This document shows, in pieces, positions 2,422 through 37,192 of a stretch of 50,276 bases of DNA (the first letter of the stretch is position 1; every line of letters starts with the position of its first letter). A program made the translations under genes and the position numbers. The stretch comes from Halomicronema sp. CCY15110 (lineage in GTDB: Bacteria > Cyanobacteriota > Cyanobacteriia > Phormidesmidales > Phormidesmidaceae). A model generated the notes under the pieces. It was not told the DNA's origin. It did no database searches and was given only the letters and a program-made list of their open reading frames with translations. The DNA lies in assembly GCF_016888165.1 (NCBI RefSeq), contig NZ_JACSWC010000182.1, forward strand, positions 1-50,276. The letters run 5' to 3'.

Positions 2422-3501
2422 ATGCCAGTTCCCTTTCCTTCCCTCCATCCGACCCCCGCTCACACTGACGCCGATGCCGCCGCCTCTGCGGACTCAGTCA
2501 TTCAGGGCGATCGCCTGACCCTCGAAAACCGGATGGACTCCGCTAATCATGCTGCCGCCGCCGCCGGTCAAGACGTGATTACGGGCCTCACCCAACCCCA
2601 TAAGGCGTTACCGCCGAAGTATTTTTACGATGCCCACGGGTCAGAACTCTTTGAGCAAATTACCGAACTGCCGGAATATTATCTAACTCGCACCGAGCGG
2701 CAAATTTTAGCCACCGATGCCGGAGCGATCGCTGATATCGTGGGGCCGTGCGACCTGATTGAACTGGGCAGCGGCAGCGCCAGCAAAACCCGGTTGCTGT
2801 TCAACGCTTATCAGCAGCGGGGCTTGCCGTTGCGGTACGTGCCGGTGGATGTCAGCGGCACCATGCTCGAAACCAGCGCCCAGGCCCTGCTCACCGAGTA
2901 CGACCAGCTCACGGTGCATGGCCTCGTCAGCACCTATGACCAAGCGCTGCAAAACCTGCCCCCAACGGACTATCCCCGGCGGCTCATCGCGTTCATTGGC
3001 AGCACCTTGGGCAATTTGGCTCCAGCGCCCGAGCAGCGCTTTTTTCAACAGGTCAGCCAAGCGCTAGCCAGCGGCGACTACTTCTTACTCGGGGTGGATT
3101 TGCACAAAGATACCGCCACCCTAGAGGCCGCCTACAACGACCAGCAGGGCATTAGTGCCGCGTTTAACCTGAATATGCTGAAACACCTTAACTGGCGGTT
3201 TGACGGCAACTTTGACCTCACCCAATTTCGCCATGTGGCGTTCTATAACGAGGGCGATCGCCAGGTCGAAATGTATATCGAAAGCCTGACGGCCCAAACC
3301 ATCACCCTGCAAGCCCTGAACCTCACCGTCGAGTTTGCCCAGGGTGAGCGACTGTTTAGTGAGATTTCCCGTAAATTTGACACCGAAGTGCTGACGCAAG
3401 AGCTGTTGGCCTTTGACCTGGCCGTCCGCCATATTTTCACCGACGATCAGCGACAATTTGCCCTGCTGCTGTGTCAAAAACAGTCGTCAGATGCGCCCTA
3501 A
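2422..3501 (+). CDS. egtD: L-histidine N-alpha-methyltransferase EgtD
   Basis: Trimethylates histidine to hercynine using SAM, the first committed step of ergothioneine synthesis. The family block beginning ALPPKYFYDAHGSELFEQI lies near residues 60-80. The SAM-binding ELGSGSASKT follows at about 114, and the fold continues through GSTLGNL and the HLNWRFDGNFD region. At 359 residues it is longer than the usual ~320 because of an Ala/Asp-rich N-terminal extension. An internal ATG at codon 38 would give a typical length, so the true start is uncertain. It is 68 bases downstream of egtB on the same strand and almost certainly co-transcribed with it. Confidence 0.93.
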   Translation: MPVPFPSLHPTPAHTDADAAASADSVIQGDRLTLENRMDSANHAAAAAGQDVITGLTQPHKALPPKYFYDAHGSELFEQITELPEYYLTRTERQILATDAGAIADIVGPCDLIELGSGSASKTRLLFNAYQQRGLPLRYVPVDVSGTMLETSAQALLTEYDQLTVHGLVSTYDQALQNLPPTDYPRRLIAFIGSTLGNLAPAPEQRFFQQVSQALASGDYFLLGVDLHKDTATLEAAYNDQQGISAAFNLNMLKHLNWRFDGNFDLTQFRHVAFYNEGDRQVEMYIESLTAQTITLQALNLTVEFAQGERLFSEISRKFDTEVLTQELLAFDLAVRHIFTDDQRQFALLLCQKQSSDAP

Positions 3502-12399: not shown

Positions 12400-13899
12400 C
12401 TAGTGGTTCGCAGAATTCTGCTGGGCCTGGGGATCGTTGTGAGTCGCCAAGCGATTGAGCAGGGACTGACTCGCTTCGTTCACGCCCAAAAGTTCGACAT
12501 CGGCCCCGTGGCGGCGAAACTTGAGCACCACCCGATCAATCGCATTCACCGCCGACTGATCCCATAGATGGGCATGGCTGAAATCGACGATCACCCGCGC
12601 CAAATCCTCCTCAAAGTCGAACGCATTGAGAAAGTCTTCAACCGAGACAAAAAAGAGTTGTCCCCCAACTTTATACGTGCGTTCATCTCCATCGTGGCTC
12701 AACACCGAATCGACAAAGACCACTTGGGCAATTTTATTGGAAAAGAACACCGTACTTAAGGCAATGCCGATGATTACCCCGATCGCCAGATTGTGGGTGT
12801 AGACCGTGATCAATACCGTGGTCACCATCACCGCCGTTTCGCTCTTGGGAACGCGGCGAATATTTTTGATCGACGCCCAGTTAAACGTCCCAATCGACAC
12901 CATAATCATTACTGCCACCAGCGCCGCCATGGGAATCTGACTCACCCAGCGCCCCAGCACCAGAATAAAAAACAGCAGCAGCACCCCAGCGGAGAACGTC
13001 GAAAGGCGTTTACGGCCACCCGACTGAATATTGATCACCGACTGACCAATCATGGCGCATCCGGCCATGCCGCCAAAGCAACCCGTAATCATGTTGGCGA
13101 TGCCTTGACCCTTGGCTTCCCGGTTTTTATCGCTGGGGGTGTCCGTCAGTTCGTCCACCAGCGAGGCCGTCAGCAGCGACTCCAGCAGGCCGACGATCGC
13201 CAGCGTGGCCGCCACCGGCAGAATAATTTGCAGCGTTTCGAAGGTCAGAGGTACCTGCGGCAGCATGAAGATCGGCGGGGTGGTTGGCAACTCGCCCATA
13301 TCTCCCACGGTCGGCACATCCAGATTCAGCGTCATGGCGGCAGCCGTGAGTACCACGATCGCCACCAGCGGCGAAGGCACCAACTGCGTCACGCGCGGCA
13401 GCAAATAAATGATCGCCAGCCCGATCGCCACCATGACATACACCAGCCAAGACCCTCCCTGCAGCTGGGGCAACTGCGCCTGAAAGATCAGAATCGCCAG
13501 GGCATTTACAAACCCCACCATCACCGCTCGCGGCACAAACTTCATGTGCTTGCCCAGCTTCAGCACGCCAAAGATGATCTGCAAAATGCCGGTAAGAATG
13601 GTGGCGGCGAAGAGGTACTGCACCCCATGGTCTTTGACCAAATACACCATCAGCAGCGCCGTCGCCCCAGTCGCCGCTGAGATCAGACCGGGTCGCCCAC
13701 CAAAAATGGCGGTCACCACCGCAATGATGAATGAGGCATAGAGCCCCACCTTGGGATCGACTCCGGCAATGATAGAAAAGGCGATCGCTTCGGGAATCAA
13801 GGCCAACGCCACCACGGTTCCGGCCAACAAGTCGCGCGGCACGTTGGAAAACCAATCGCGTCGCAGTTGGGTGGCATTGAACCAGGTGCTCGTGGTCAC
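12400..13899 (-). CDS. SulP family anion transporter with STAS domain
   Basis: An inner-membrane transporter of 499 residues. The start is GTG 13899, chosen because AAGGAGAGG lies immediately upstream at ideal distance; a longer frame to 14004 lacks such support. The SulP core shows [38 protein letters not shown] and [26 protein letters not shown] cytoplasmic STAS domain occupies about residues 400-490 ([33 protein letters not shown]). It differs clearly from BicA downstream, lacking SEPTGPMT. Substrate is uncertain: sulfate, bicarbonate or another anion. First gene of the sulP-usp-bicA operon. Confidence 0.88.
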
Positions 13900-14310
13900 A
13901 GACCTCTCCTTAGCAAAATTATCCAACGTCAGGTTAGCGGCGATCGCGCCCGACATCCAGCGGGCGATCGCGACGACGACGGACTCAACGTGACCGATGG
14001 CCACCCGTCTCTGATCAGACTCAGGCCATCACAACGCCATCAAGATTGAGCGCATGATATCAAAACGATTGAGTCAGACCACGGTAACACCACGATACCG
14101 GACACCTGGGGCATTGCCTCAACTCGCCAGCGATATTGGACGGGGCGGGGCGGGCTGAGGGCGGGCGATCGCGGGGATGATATCGCCGTACACCGCCTCC
14201 GGTACTAGCGTGATCACAAGCCCTGACTCCGGCATCGCGATCGCCAACATCTAGTCAAGTCCGGAGCTGCAAGCGGCATCGCGACAAATTTCAACCTCAA
14301 CCCCGCTAGT
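13900..14310. other. Intergenic region upstream of the sulP-usp-bicA operon
   Basis: Contains the ribosome site of the sulP gene (AAGGAGAGG, about 13902-13911), many HIP1-like GCGATCGC cores and GC-rich spacer. No gene or clear promoter could be recognised. Confidence 0.4.
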
Positions 14311-14443
14311 GATCGCCATGCGCCACAAAAGCGACCCATCATCCCCCAATTCCCAACCGGGTGACTAGCCATAAAACTGCCAATACCCCTGAACATAAAG
14401 CGTATTGACTAAGAGCAGTAGGCCCCGTCCCCAGCGCGATCGC
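14311..14443 (-). pseudogene. Duplicated 3' end of the 15230-15790 membrane protein gene
   Basis: About 133 bases closely match 15180-15308. In the minus-strand frame ending at 14365 it encodes RSRWGRGLLLLVNTLYVQGYW-type sequence and a stop, paralleling the last ~26 codons of the downstream gene. The matching continues some 54 bases past the stop. It lies 31 bases past the end of vapC. It is a remnant, not a functional gene. Confidence 0.8.
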
Positions 14444-14474
14444 CCAATGCAAAGGCTCATTCACGTCTGACCAG

Positions 14475-14861
14475 TTACCAAAGCCTTTCGCAGTCATACT
14501 GAGCAAAAGCCGGATCTTTGGATACCAGCGTTGCAGCCTCAACCCGACCCTGAGCAATGAGTAGTCGATCAAACGGGTCTTTGTGATGCCAGGGCAACTG
14601 CTCTAGCTCAATAATGTGAGCCAGGGTAATGGGAAGAATCACCACACCGTTCTGGGTTTCCTGTCGTTGAACAACATTCAGCAAAGGTTCTTGCAACTCC
14701 AGCTTGCCCAAATGCGATTTGATCTGAATTTCCCAAATGCTCACCAGGCTGAGCAAGACCTCATTGTTGGAGTCCTTCAATGCATCCAACGTACCCGCAG
14801 GAATTTGACTCGATTGACTGTCCCACCAGATAAACGTGTGGGTATCCATCAAAAGCTTCAT
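14475..14861 (-). CDS. PIN-domain toxin, VapC-like ribonuclease
   Basis: A 128-residue PIN-domain protein, usual size for VapC toxins, which are Mg2+-dependent RNases. Acidic residues expected at the active site are Asp6 in MKLLMDTHTFIWW, Glu in SIWEIQIK, and two Asp in HKDPFDRLLIAQ, with a later Asp in SKDPAFAQYD. The gene overlaps the upstream antitoxin by four bases (ATGA), a common arrangement for toxin-antitoxin pairs. It closely resembles cyanobacterial PIN proteins of this class (WHHKDPFDR). The RNA target is unknown. Confidence 0.85.
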   Translation of the reverse strand: MKLLMDTHTFIWWDSQSSQIPAGTLDALKDSNNEVLLSLVSIWEIQIKSHLGKLELQEPLLNVVQRQETQNGVVILPITLAHIIELEQLPWHHKDPFDRLLIAQGRVEAATLVSKDPAFAQYDCERLW

Positions 14862-15079
14862 CCTTCACCGAGCCAAAAGCTATCAGGCAACGGCTCATCA
14901 AAATCGTCAGCAACGCAGAATGCCCCTGGATGCAGATCTGGTTGGCGCTGTTGTGATAATTGACTGTCATGCTGAGTCGGCATTTTAGTTTCAGCCCACT
15001 GCAACAAACGAGTGGCTAGATGAAGCTGCTCTTGCCAACTCAATCGTTGAGCTTCTTGTATGAGTTCTTGTAAGGTCAT
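14858..15079 (-). CDS. Putative antitoxin partner of the PIN toxin
   Basis: A 73-residue protein that starts MTLQELIQEAQRLSWQEQLHLA. The N-terminal helix-rich segment resembles the DUF2281-type or related VapB-like antitoxins that begin with short helical dimerisation units. The C-terminal part is acidic and probably disordered (DDFDEPLPDSFWLGEG), as expected for a toxin-binding tail. ATG 15079 is used, with GGGAG upstream; the preceding TTG is less likely. It overlaps the toxin gene by four bases. Confidence 0.75.
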   Translation of the reverse strand: MTLQELIQEAQRLSWQEQLHLATRLLQWAETKMPTQHDSQLSQQRQPDLHPGAFCVADDFDEPLPDSFWLGEG

Positions 15080-15179
15080 CAAGGCTCCCTCAACCGATCA
15101 TTTCTAGGGTAGCTGAGCCGGAGAGAATATCGATGCTCGTTAAGACATCCAGGGTGAAGATTCCTTCAGTGCCACTCGC

Positions 15180-15308
15180 GATCGCCATACATCCGGCGAC
15201 CCATCAGCCCCCCACTCCCCCCGGGACGACTAGCCATAAAACTGCCAATACCCACCGACATAGACCGTGTTGACCAGGAGTAGCAGGCTCCGCCCCCAGC
15301 GCGATCGC
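15180..15308 (-). repeat. Second copy of the ~130-bp direct repeat flanking vapBC
   Basis: Matches 14311-14443 with scattered substitutions. The run shared around the stop codon (GACTAGCCATAAAACTGCCA) is identical. This copy belongs to the 3' end of the intact gene at 15230-15790. Confidence 0.8.
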
Positions 15309-15790
15309 ACCCGCCGCCACAACACGACACTCGCCACCAGCACCAGGGCGAGTTCAGCGAGCGCCCCATAATTACCATGATGGTCAGCGTCCCAATACGA
15401 CACCGGGCTGATGAAGCGGTAATCACTCAACGGCCAAAAATGCTGGTGGGCGTCCTCATGGTGCAGAGGCAAATCTTCTAAATGGTGCAACAAGGCACTG
15501 GCTGACAAGGCCACCCCGCCCGGCGATTTGGCCCAGAGAAACCAGCCGATGCCCACCAGGGCCAGGGGAATGGAGTTGCCGATCGCAAAAATACCCTGCC
15601 AAACGGGGGTGTAATACGCCTCGTTCCAAATCACCTGTTCTGGCAGGCCCATGACTTTGGCCCAGCCGTAAAAGACAAAGATGGCGGCATCGGGCAACCA
15701 ACTGCCAACAATAATCGGCCAGGTGCAGCCCTTGAGCTGACCCCGGTCTAAAATCGCTAAATTGAGAATACTGTGACTGGGAGTATTCAT
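15230..15790 (-). CDS. Conserved membrane protein, possibly YdjM-like metal-dependent hydrolase family
   Basis: A 186-residue protein with about four hydrophobic helices. It is strikingly rich in His and Asp: MNTPSHSILNLAILD, then GSWLPDAAIFVFYGW, then HHLEDLPLHHEDAHQHFWPLSD in the middle. The pattern of an early His, a GSWLPD Asp and a central H/D cluster with WPLS resembles integral-membrane putative metal hydrolases of the YdjM group. Activity is unproven. It starts only 12 bases from the divergent cysteine desulfurase gene. Its last ~26 codons are duplicated beyond vapC. Confidence 0.7.
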   Translation of the reverse strand: MNTPSHSILNLAILDRGQLKGCTWPIIVGSWLPDAAIFVFYGWAKVMGLPEQVIWNEAYYTPVWQGIFAIGNSIPLALVGIGWFLWAKSPGGVALSASALLHHLEDLPLHHEDAHQHFWPLSDYRFISPVSYWDADHHGNYGALAELALVLVASVVLWRRVRSRWGRSLLLLVNTVYVGGYWQFYG

Positions 15791-15802
15791 CTCGGTTTTG
15801 CC

Positions 15803-16987
15803 ATGGCGCGACCCTCTCGACCGGTTTATTTAGATTGCCATGCCACGACGCCCGTCGATCCGCTAGTGATGGCGGCGATGCTGCCGTTTTTTACCGAGCA
15901 TTTTGGTAATCCGGCCAGCGTCGGCCACCTTTACGGTTGGGAAGCCGAGGCCGCTGTGCAGCGATCGCGCGAAATCATCGCCGCTGGCCTGAACGCGACC
16001 CCCACCGAAATTGTCTTCACCAGCGGTGCCACGGAGGCCAATAACCTAGCTATTAAAGGCGTTGCCGAAGCGTATTTCAGCCAAGGTCGGCACATTGTCA
16101 CCGTGGCGACGGAGCATAGCGCTGTGCTGGATCCCTGTCGCTACTTAGAGGGCTTGGGCTTTGAGGTCACCTATCTGCCCGTCGGGCCGGATGGACTCAT
16201 TGATGTGGCAGAACTGGCGCGATCGCTGCGGGATGACACGATCCTCGTTTCCGTCATGGCGGCGAATAATGAAATCGGCGTGTTGCAGCCTTTGGCTGAG
16301 ATTGGGCAATGCTGTCACGACCGGGGCGTCCTGTTCCATACGGACGCGGCCCAAGCGATCGGCAAAATTGACCTGGATGTGCAAGCCCAGCACATCGATT
16401 TGCTTTCCTGCACCGCCCACAAAGTCTACGGCCCCAAAGGCATTGGGGCGCTGTATGTGCGTCAGCGCCAGCCCCGCGTCAACCTGGCGGCGCAACTGCA
16501 CGGGGGCGGTCACGAACGGGGACGGCGATCGGGCACGCTCTACACTCCACAAATTGTCGGTTTGGGCAAAGCCCTGGAGTTAGCGTGGGCCAACCAAGCG
16601 AGCGAGCAAGCCCGGTTAGGGGCCATGCGCGATCGCCTCTGGCAGGCCCTGCAAGCTTTACCAGGGGTGCAGCTAAACGGTCACCCTACCCAGCGCCTCG
16701 CCCACAATCTCAACATCAGCGTCGCCGGGGTGGATGGCCAAGCCCTGCTCTTGGGGCTGAAAAATGTCGTCGCCCTTTCCTCCGGGGCCGCTTGCAGTTC
16801 TACCAGCACCGCGCCTTCTCACGTGCTCAAAGCGATCGGTCACACCGATGCCCTCGCCTATGCCTCCCTCCGGTTTGGCCTCGGTCGCTTCAATACCCCA
16901 GCCGAAATCGACCAGGTGGCCCAAGCTTGCTGCGACACGATTACCGCCCTGCGTTCCCGAAGCAGCATTCAGCCAGCCGTAAAATAG
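15803..16987 (+). CDS. Cysteine desulfurase (IscS/NifS class)
   Basis: A PLP enzyme that takes sulfur from cysteine for Fe-S clusters and thiolation. The start MARPSRPVYLDCHATTPVDP is typical. The PLP-binding Lys207 lies in SCTAHKVYGPKG; the mobile catalytic Cys331 lies in SSGAACSSTST. ATEANNLAIKG and EHSAVLDPC, with HTDAAQAIGK, complete the class V aminotransferase signature. The long loop around the catalytic Cys is the group I (IscS/NifS) form. Length 394 residues. ATG 15803 is preferred to a GTG at 15773, which would overlap the divergent gene. No scaffold genes are adjacent. Confidence 0.9.
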   Translation: MARPSRPVYLDCHATTPVDPLVMAAMLPFFTEHFGNPASVGHLYGWEAEAAVQRSREIIAAGLNATPTEIVFTSGATEANNLAIKGVAEAYFSQGRHIVTVATEHSAVLDPCRYLEGLGFEVTYLPVGPDGLIDVAELARSLRDDTILVSVMAANNEIGVLQPLAEIGQCCHDRGVLFHTDAAQAIGKIDLDVQAQHIDLLSCTAHKVYGPKGIGALYVRQRQPRVNLAAQLHGGGHERGRRSGTLYTPQIVGLGKALELAWANQASEQARLGAMRDRLWQALQALPGVQLNGHPTQRLAHNLNISVAGVDGQALLLGLKNVVALSSGAACSSTSTAPSHVLKAIGHTDALAYASLRFGLGRFNTPAEIDQVAQACCDTITALRSRSSIQPAVK

Positions 16988-35029: not shown

Positions 35030-36103
35030 ATGAAGTTCAGCGACATCGTCCAGCGGCTTGGCTTAACTGCGGAAAATTCTAGCCTCAAAACCTTTCCAGA
35101 ATGTGATCCAGAGATTACTGCGGTGACGCCCGTACAAACGGGAACAGTCGGAACGATTGGCTACATCGAGGGTCAAAAGTTTCAAGCCTATGTGGCAACG
35201 ACCCAGGTGAGTGCGCTGATTTTGCCCGAGGATCAGGATTTGCAGACCCGGGCCAGCGATCGCGGGTTGGCTTGGGTGAGCATGGCCGAACCGCGTTGGG
35301 GCTTTGCCCAAGCGCTGGCGTTGTTTTATCAGCCCTATCGACCGCGTCCTGGCATCCATCCCACGGCAGTCATTGATCAGTCGGGACAACTGGGCAAGGA
35401 CGTGACCATTGACGCCAATGTGGTCATACATCCCGGTGTGGTCATTGGTGATGGCGTCTGTATCCACGCCAATGTGGTGATTTATCCCGAAACGGTGATT
35501 GGTGATCGCACTGTGCTGTACGCCAACTGTGTGATTCATGAACACACCCACATTGGGGCCGACTGCGTGGTGCACAGCGGTGCCGTGATTGGCTCAGAAG
35601 GCTTTGGTTTCATTTTGCAAGAAGGGCGGTGGATCAAGATTCCCCAGTCCGGGCGCACCATTTTGGAAGCCGAAGTCGAAGTGGGCTGCAACACCACCAT
35701 TGATCGGCCCTCTGTCGGTGAAACCCGCATTCAGGCCAACACCAAGCTCGATAACCTCGTACATATCGCCCACAACTGCCAGATTGGGCCGAGCTGTGTC
35801 ATGGCCGCCCAAGTCGGCCTGGCGGGGCAGGTGGAAACCCAAGACCATGTGATTTTGGGGGGGCAGGTCGGGGCCGCCAACCAAACCCACATTGGGGCCA
35901 ACGTGCAAGCGGGGGCCAAGGCTGGACTCCACGGTCACATCGCCCCAGGCAGCATCGTCATGGGCAATCCGGCGAGTCCGTACCGCACCTTTTTAAAGTC
36001 GTCAGCCATTTACAATCGCCTGCCGCAGATGCAGCGCACCCTCAAGGAGCTCCAACAGCAGGTGGCCACCCTACAGCAGCAGATTGAAGCACTTAATTCT
36101 TAA
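35030..36103 (+). CDS. lpxD: UDP-3-O-acylglucosamine N-acyltransferase LpxD, first paralogue
   Basis: Adds the N-linked acyl chain in lipid A synthesis, using acyl-ACP. N-terminal uridine-binding domain MKFSDIVQRLGLTAEN, then a left-handed beta-helix of hexapeptide repeats (IGDGVCIHANVVIYPETVIGD-type coils). The catalytic His is H248 in LVHIAHNCQIG. The C-terminal helical tail has the long coiled-coil run ending QQIEALNS. Length 357. It lies 25 bases after rlmD. A second lpxD-like gene follows after 45 bases; the two are about as similar as ancient duplicates, with matched motifs throughout. Confidence 0.88.
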   Translation: MKFSDIVQRLGLTAENSSLKTFPECDPEITAVTPVQTGTVGTIGYIEGQKFQAYVATTQVSALILPEDQDLQTRASDRGLAWVSMAEPRWGFAQALALFYQPYRPRPGIHPTAVIDQSGQLGKDVTIDANVVIHPGVVIGDGVCIHANVVIYPETVIGDRTVLYANCVIHEHTHIGADCVVHSGAVIGSEGFGFILQEGRWIKIPQSGRTILEAEVEVGCNTTIDRPSVGETRIQANTKLDNLVHIAHNCQIGPSCVMAAQVGLAGQVETQDHVILGGQVGAANQTHIGANVQAGAKAGLHGHIAPGSIVMGNPASPYRTFLKSSAIYNRLPQMQRTLKELQQQVATLQQQIEALNS

Positions 36104-36148
36104 GTTTCGGGAGGATTCGATTGTTCGCGCATCGCCAAGGACCTTGTC

Positions 36149-37192
36149 ATGAAGTTCAGTGAATTCGTTCAGCATTTAACCGCCACTTTGCCGCAGTCTC
36201 AAGTGCATTTGGCCGACGATCCTGAGCTCACGGGCCTGTCGGCGATTGAAGAGGCGGCGGCCCAGACCCTGAGCTACATCGAGGGAGAAAAATACGCTCA
36301 CCATGTGCTCACGACCCCGGCCTGTGCGTTGATTTTGCCCCGACATGAAGGGTTGCAAGCCCAGGCTTGCGATCGCAACTTAGCCTGGATTGCGGTCGAA
36401 GCCCCCCGGGTGGCCCTGGCCCTCGCGATCAGCTGCTTTTACCAGCCCGTCCGCCCCCCAGTGGGGATTCATCCCACGGCTCAGATTCACCCCACAGCGC
36501 AAGTCGGTCAGGATGTCGCCATTGCGGCCAACGTCGTTATTGGTGCCCAGACCACCCTTGGCGAGGGGGTCGCTATTCACCCCAATGTGGTGGTGTATGC
36601 CGGTGCCCAGGTGGGCGATCGCACTGTACTCCACGCCAACTGCGTGATTCATGAGCGTTCGGAAATTGGCCCCGACTGCGTGATCCATGCCGGTGCGGTG
36701 ATCGGCTCCGAGGGGTTCGGCTTTGTCCCGGTATCGGAAGGCTGGGTCAAAATGCCCCAAGCGGGCTATGTGGTACTGGCTTCAGGGGTCGAGGTGGGCT
36801 GCAACGCCACCATCGATCGCCCCGCCCTCGGCACGACTCAGGTGGGCCGCAACACCAAAATTGACAACTTGGTGCAAGTAGCTCACGGCAGCAAAATTGG
36901 CGAAAATTGCGCGATCGCCGCCCAGACGGGGATGGCGGGGGGCGTCAAAATTGGCAATCGGGTGATTCTGGCGGGGCAGGTCGGCATTGTGGATCACGTG
37001 ACCATCGGTGATGGGGCGATCGGGGCGGCCAAGGCGGGCATCCACCATCATGTGCAGCCAGGCGAAATTGTTTCCGGCAGCCCAGCGCTTCCTCATAAAG
37101 TGTTTCTCAAAGCCTCAGCGGTCTTTCGCCGTTTGCCCGAAATGCACCGCACCCTCAAGCAACTCAGTCGCGATGCGGGATTTAAGGAATAA
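36149..37192 (+). CDS. LpxD-like acyltransferase, second paralogue
   Basis: A 347-residue hexapeptide-repeat acyltransferase with the same design as the upstream gene: [37 protein letters not shown], then coils such as [20 protein letters not shown]. The catalytic His is retained (H246) but its context is VAHG rather than IAHN. The C-terminus lacks the long Gln-rich coiled coil. AAGGA lies upstream of ATG 36149. Either different chain-length preference or a role in another acylated glycan is possible; which paralogue makes lipid A is not decided by sequence. Confidence 0.85.

Follow-up and report, generated by a model that had tools for sequence, protein, structure and literature searches.

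A VapBC-type toxin–antitoxin pair lies between two direct repeats of a gene's 3' end in the 50,276-nt stretch of DNA analysed here, which we call the window. The source genome (G000) consists of 443 contigs. On the minus strand the order is the membrane gene (15790-15230), its 3' flank, vapB, vapC, the loose copy of the gene end (14443-14303) and the SulP permease (14004-12400). The ungapped repeats at 14331-14443 and 15196-15308 are 81% identical over 113 nt at a spacing of 865, and gapped alignment extends them to the limits given in Table 1. The local alignment score of the two flanks was 123, compared with at most 32 in 300 shuffles. The repeats take in the last 25 codons and the stop of the membrane gene, in frame, as well as about 60 nt of the 3' flank. 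In the loose copy the frame is preserved, and the stop is identical to that of the membrane gene. When the 3' flank was taken alone, 45 of 62 aligned positions matched between the two copies (shuffled maximum 41). A preliminary description of this DNA had reported a gene-end duplicate of about 130 bases beyond vapC, with the pair exactly between the copies and no integrase. The direct repeats were confirmed at a length of about 140 nt, not 130. The pair (14475-15082) does lie strictly inside them, and no ORF between the repeats apart from vapB and vapC is a plausible gene.

Table 1. Features around the repeats in the window, and the seven gene-end cases of the survey
Feature	Location	Strand	Description
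Downstream neighbour	12400..14004	-	SulP-type permease; common to G001
Multicopy 95-aa gene remnant	14190..14245	-	about 56 nt of the 3' part
Distal repeat	14303..14443	-	loose copy: last 25 codons and stop 14365-14443, 3' flank 14303-14364
DNA between repeats	14444..15171	-	48.6% G+C, window 55.7%
vapC-like toxin gene	14475..14861	-	PIN domain, 128 aa
vapB-like antitoxin gene	14858..15082	-	74 aa, 4-nt overlap with vapC
Proximal repeat	15172..15308	-	3' end and flank of the intact membrane gene itself
Target gene	15230..15790	-	conserved cyanobacterial membrane-like protein, 186 aa
Upstream neighbour	15773..16987	+	IscS/NifS-type cysteine desulfurase
Gene-end case	G000 (window)		membrane gene, 3' end
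Gene-end case	G000 contig C372, L377 1605-1663 / 2703-2761		uracil-phosphoribosyltransferase-like (upp-like) 3' end, 59-nt copy, ParE-type pair between
Gene-end case	G004		comM-like gene
Gene-end case	G008		small multicopy 95-aa gene, 3' end
Gene-end case	G017		a gene end
Gene-end case	G003		ABC-transporter-like gene, 5' end
Gene-end case	G006		cation-ATPase-like gene, 5' end

The vapC product matched PF01850 (E 1.4e-10, 42.3 bits against a cut-off of 23.6). The vapB product gave a weak match to TA_VapB NF050009 (20.8 bits, cut-off 60) and no Pfam match, and the target membrane protein has no Pfam or NCBIfam name. The pair shares with VapBC type II systems a PIN-domain toxin and a small upstream antitoxin gene that overlaps the toxin gene. 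It differs in the weak TA_VapB match of its antitoxin, and its toxin–antitoxin activity is predicted. Homology to other vapBC loci covers 14468-15114 (G019) and 14468-15152 (G008, in two pieces). Because this homology stops at 14468 and at 15114 or 15152, the unit ends just inside both repeats. A DNA search of its own genome for further copies of the unit returned nothing except a 34-nt match, and plasmid DNA and viral contigs gave no match. The plasmid protein search returned vapC relatives all below 60% identity and two weak matches to the membrane protein. The genome contig scan returned one distant locus only.

The window holds three direct-repeat families of at least 60 nt, one of which is the gene-end repeat. 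The longest direct repeat (166 nt, 73%, at 35445 / 36558) is due to a pair of neighbouring acyltransferase-like paralogues (identified by eye) at 35030-37192. At the remnant of the 95-aa gene, 11 of the 12 best-scoring copies stop at one query position (best score 64, shuffled 37.5). No tRNA gene that could act as an attachment site was found in the window or in nine scanned loci. HIP1 octamers point to cyanobacteria. The octamer GCGATCGC occurs at 14436, 15178 and 15301, and it was dropped as an insertion border because its density is 1.8 per kb.

Relatives of the locus and survey of flanking repeats

The membrane gene was matched in 35 of the 59 genomes searched. In G000 itself there are two matches, the gene and the loose end. 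Collinearity with the closest relative, G001, extends over about 7.6-23 kb at ~80-85% identity and is broken at 14173-15213 and at smaller gaps. G001 has one gene end, without a second copy. The interval corresponding to vapBC holds unrelated UPF0175 antitoxin-like and DUF3368 toxin-like genes there, with orientation unchanged (L002 590-1329); the toxin-like protein matches the PADLOC candidate PDC-S70. The nearest vapC of G001 (77% identical) lies on a different contig without flanking repeats. Since the pairs of G000 and G001 are different, the sequences indicate that this interval took up distinct toxin–antitoxin pairs in two sister species. At the other 28 membrane-gene loci read, no toxin–antitoxin pair was recognised by eye in the DNA that follows the gene. 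The preliminary description had looked to relatives for an empty site. G001 has the single gene end, but its interval is occupied by a different pair. As refuting observations it had named the duplicate without vapBC and vapBC without duplicates. The former was not seen among the genomes examined; the latter holds for 59 of the 66 vapC loci tested and is thus common, as would be expected if the second copy has disappeared after most insertions or if these mostly follow a different route.

A vapBC of the same lineage sits at another gene in G008. Its vapB is 88% identical to that of the window, and its vapC is internally shortened. The G008 pair lies between the 3' end of the 95-aa gene and a loose copy of that end (131 nt, 86% identical). 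The gene is multicopy (12 matches in G008), which weakens this case: the loose copy (83% protein identity) is no closer to the resident gene than other G008 copies are (90% and 85%).

The best direct repeat within 1 kb on each side of the toxin gene was then scored at a single fixed threshold. Tight flanking direct repeats were found at 14 of 160 testable toxin–antitoxin loci of this cyanobacterial family and at 11 of 976 control centres (Fisher P = 8e-7), where the 14 include the window, that is, one match by ascertainment. By class, the matches were 7/66 for vapC, 2/28 for DUF3368 and 1/27 for ParE, with 1/20 and 3/19 in the second batches. The controls gave 0/28 at acetyltransferase loci, 0/28 at membrane-gene loci and 11/920 at random centres, which were 800 bp apart and overlap. 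The enrichment was present in the first batches (P = 2e-5) and in the second batch (4/39, P = 0.002). Loci with too little flank were left out (10 of 170 toxin–antitoxin loci and 3 of 979 controls).

In an unblinded, post hoc reading by eye, 7 of the 14 survey matches duplicate the 3' or 5' end of a protein gene (Table 1), and the same unblinded reading found a gene-end copy around another gene in 0 of the 11 control matches. The names comM, uracil phosphoribosyltransferase, ABC transporter, ATPase and Uma2 were assigned by eye from sequence features. The other seven matches were not counted as gene-end cases. The repeats of L054 belong to a multicopy cluster, L058 is a three-copy repeat, L118 is a Uma2-like multicopy 5' end, L138 is an antitoxin-like remnant, and the repeats of L351, L369 and L378 did not resolve to a gene end. 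Among the control matches, four lie inside one ORF (L212, L229, L237 and one in L226), four lie in neighbouring similar genes (L225, L244 and two in L230), two adjoin a repeat-rich transposase-like gene (L226), and one, of 75 nt, surrounds an unnamed ORF (L220). The comM gene of G004 matched itself, the 37-codon loose end and, far more weakly, one other gene. The comM-like gene of G005 is split, with its two parts about 62 kb from each other on the same contig (G005:C1:4737512-4738387 and 4675471-4675938; L252, L253), as the insertion of a large element might leave it.

Divergence and kinship of the gene-end copies

If a loose gene end arose in place, changes are to be expected at all of its codon positions. 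Proportions of synonymous and nonsynonymous differences (pS/pN) were counted by the Nei-Gojobori method. The window copies gave 0.43/0.08 over 78 nt of coding sequence, compared with 0.38/0.08 for the orthologues of G000 and G001. The values were 0.23/0.02 for the comM copies, 0.39/0.06 for G008, 0.40/0.09 for G003, 0.23/0.09 for G006, 0.44/0.22 for G017 and 0.27/0.11 for the upp-like gene; overall the divergence is mostly synonymous. The model of neutral decay had a neutral and a selected branch. Jointly, the seven cases departed from it, with P of 0.0016, 0.0003 and 0.00005 at a selected-branch omega of 0, 0.1 and 0.2, respectively. The synonymous excess of the window alone had a P of 0.02-0.04, and neutral decay was not rejected for G003, G006, G017 or the upp-like case taken singly. 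A simulation that placed every change on the loose copy, a model that is too strict, lowered the P of the window to 0.0007. The loose copy of G003 carries a 20-nt gap and a stop. Judged by these counts, the gene-end copies do not appear to be simply decayed duplicates, as their differences are synonymous beyond the expectation of neutral decay. The preliminary description had also proposed to date the event by the identity of the copies. Such a date would mislead, because the divergence between the copies probably predates their meeting.

The kinship of the copies differed among the cases. For G006, over an alignment of 285 nt, the resident copy grouped with G059 in 993 and 988 of 1000 replicates, when compared with G034 or G019, and the loose copy fell outside this group. 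In the window, the resident copy grouped with G001 in 72-82% of 2000 replicates. The comM copies are sisters (93% identity, whereas no orthologue is above 87%), and most of the derived bases lie in the loose one, as in-place duplication would give. The far copy thus appears to be foreign, with good support, in G006; for the window this support is weak, and for comM there is none. In the upp-like case, the base of all four relatives is found in the loose copy at 2 of the 8 differing sites and in the resident gene at 3 others. Sites 15 and 19 are those where the loose copy agrees with all relatives (all four at one of them) and the resident gene differs. This mixed pattern thus reflects older states together with later decay in the loose copy.

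The 3' flank gave a further comparison. Against G001, the flank of the gene matched at 38 of 60 positions (shuffled maximum 40) and that of the loose copy at 39 of 62 (shuffled maximum 39), so that the flank is detectably common only to the gene and the loose copy. This common flank favours the gene and the loose copy as closest kin. The flank of G001 may have been replaced by the insertion in G001 itself.

Origin of the repeat-flanked pair

We consider the integrase-free integration of foreign DNA bearing the pair and a homologous gene end to be the best reading, and about as probable as not. DNA of a related cyanobacterium would have carried a VapBC pair beside its own membrane-gene 3' end, and this incoming DNA would have recombined with the resident gene at the homologous gene end. 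If the DNA was a circle, a single crossover would give an intact gene, the cargo and a second gene end. The resident gene would remain intact, the pair would come next, and the donor gene end would be left beyond the pair as a loose fragment. The same would hold for further genes, whether at the 3' or the 5' end, and for other toxin–antitoxin families. A repeat-flanked insert could be lost by recombination between the repeats, and the addiction module would be retained, as its loss would leave the toxin unopposed. Such a cost of losing the cargo would explain the gathering of these repeats around toxin–antitoxin pairs and, as PMC3874152 reports, around restriction-modification systems. The data show the repeats, what they hold of the gene end, their recurrence and enrichment and the overall synonymous divergence, and in part a foreign source of the far copy; the circle, the single crossover, the identity of the donor and the retention through addiction we infer. 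A single crossover usually gives hybrid copies, of which the window shows no evident example, and no donor, circle or clean empty site was seen among the genomes examined; both count against this reading.

Of the two ideas in the preliminary description, integration with a gene end recreated or kept was the better. The unit edges lie just inside the repeats, G001 has a single gene end and a different pair, and the vapBC of G008 also lies between copies of a gene 3' end. The other idea, a tandem gene duplication partly overwritten by vapBC, agrees with the direct orientation of the repeats and is otherwise hardly credible. The two copies should have started identical and the loose one should have decayed, whereas the differences between them are mostly synonymous; moreover, no other gene remnant was recognised between the repeats, and the edges of the vapBC unit lie at the repeats. 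The 3' ends of genes are classic attachment sites, so a site-specific element, such as an integron-like cassette or an integrase island, might have used the gene ends in that manner. We regard this as very improbable: no integrase gene lies between the repeats, the repeats come from different genes with no common site noticed by eye, and two of the cases are 5' ends.

True long target duplication is a more serious competitor, although we think it unlikely. Here an event of some kind would have inserted vapBC and copied a target of about 140 bp, and the loose copy would then have decayed. The sister relation of the comM copies, with most derived changes in the loose one, the 20-nt gap and stop of G003 and the 3' flank common to both window copies all fit such an event, and PMC3874152 reports a matching anatomy for restriction-modification systems, with target duplications of the order of 100 bp. 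It conflicts with the synonymous excess across the seven cases, the G006 tree, the bases of other species in the upp-like fragment and, weakly, the grouping of the window gene with G001. Two separate events are less probable still. In that account the pair was already present, and a foreign gene end was joined later by homology-facilitated illegitimate recombination or allele replacement. The unrelated pair in G001 suggests that the interval is prone to exchange, and the remnant at 14190-14245 would be further accessory debris there. Against this, tight bracketing of the pair is also seen at other genes and involves several toxin families, and no donor tract is shown in sulP by identity to G001.

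Inserts with long, variable target duplications, of the order of 100 bp, are described for restriction-modification systems in PMC3874152. Long target duplication is credited to Nobusato 2000 and Furuta 2010 in PMC3874152, PMC1643837 and PMC3031569. The window shares with such inserts an addiction module without integrase or IS and direct repeats of about 100 bp of target. It differs in its VapBC-type cargo, in the gene ends as targets in the clear cases and in copies that look like diverged homologues. The module is flanked by target repeats of about 100 bp, and its cargo is not a restriction-modification system. An E. coli study found the locus partly duplicated in 56 of 60 clones after the entry of plasmid DNA with a lacZ end; the duplications were 109-950 bp in the 14 sequenced and were ascribed to a single crossover of circles (PMC3240628). 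That system likewise has an insert flanked by partial duplication of a homologous gene; it was a laboratory construct of lacZ and a drug marker, in contrast to the diverged homology and addiction-module cargo of the window. The anatomy of the window belongs with long-target-duplication insertion; it is set apart by what it carries, by the gene ends as targets and by a second copy that is diverged and mostly keeps the frame. We found no report of gene-end copies around toxin–antitoxin pairs in the openly accessible literature.

The question addressed here is how small toxin–antitoxin pairs move from chromosome to chromosome without an attached mobile element. We tentatively propose that they may spread without a transposition enzyme by way of homologous gene ends, with the insert locked in by the addiction effect. 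If this is true, diverged gene ends beside such pairs would be a readable record of donor and route, and the same logic would account for the long target duplications of restriction-modification systems. If gene-end copies mark homology-driven entry, entries could be found and donors traced, and the stabilisation of unstable, repeat-flanked inserts by addiction would be directly testable.

The 95-aa gene, whose remnant lies beside the distal repeat, is absent from Pfam and NCBIfam. The gene (L070 5033-5320) has up to 43 matches per genome in this cyanobacterial family. It was denser near toxin–antitoxin loci, with 12 matches in 451 kb compared with 2 in 996 kb of control (first-batch loci only).
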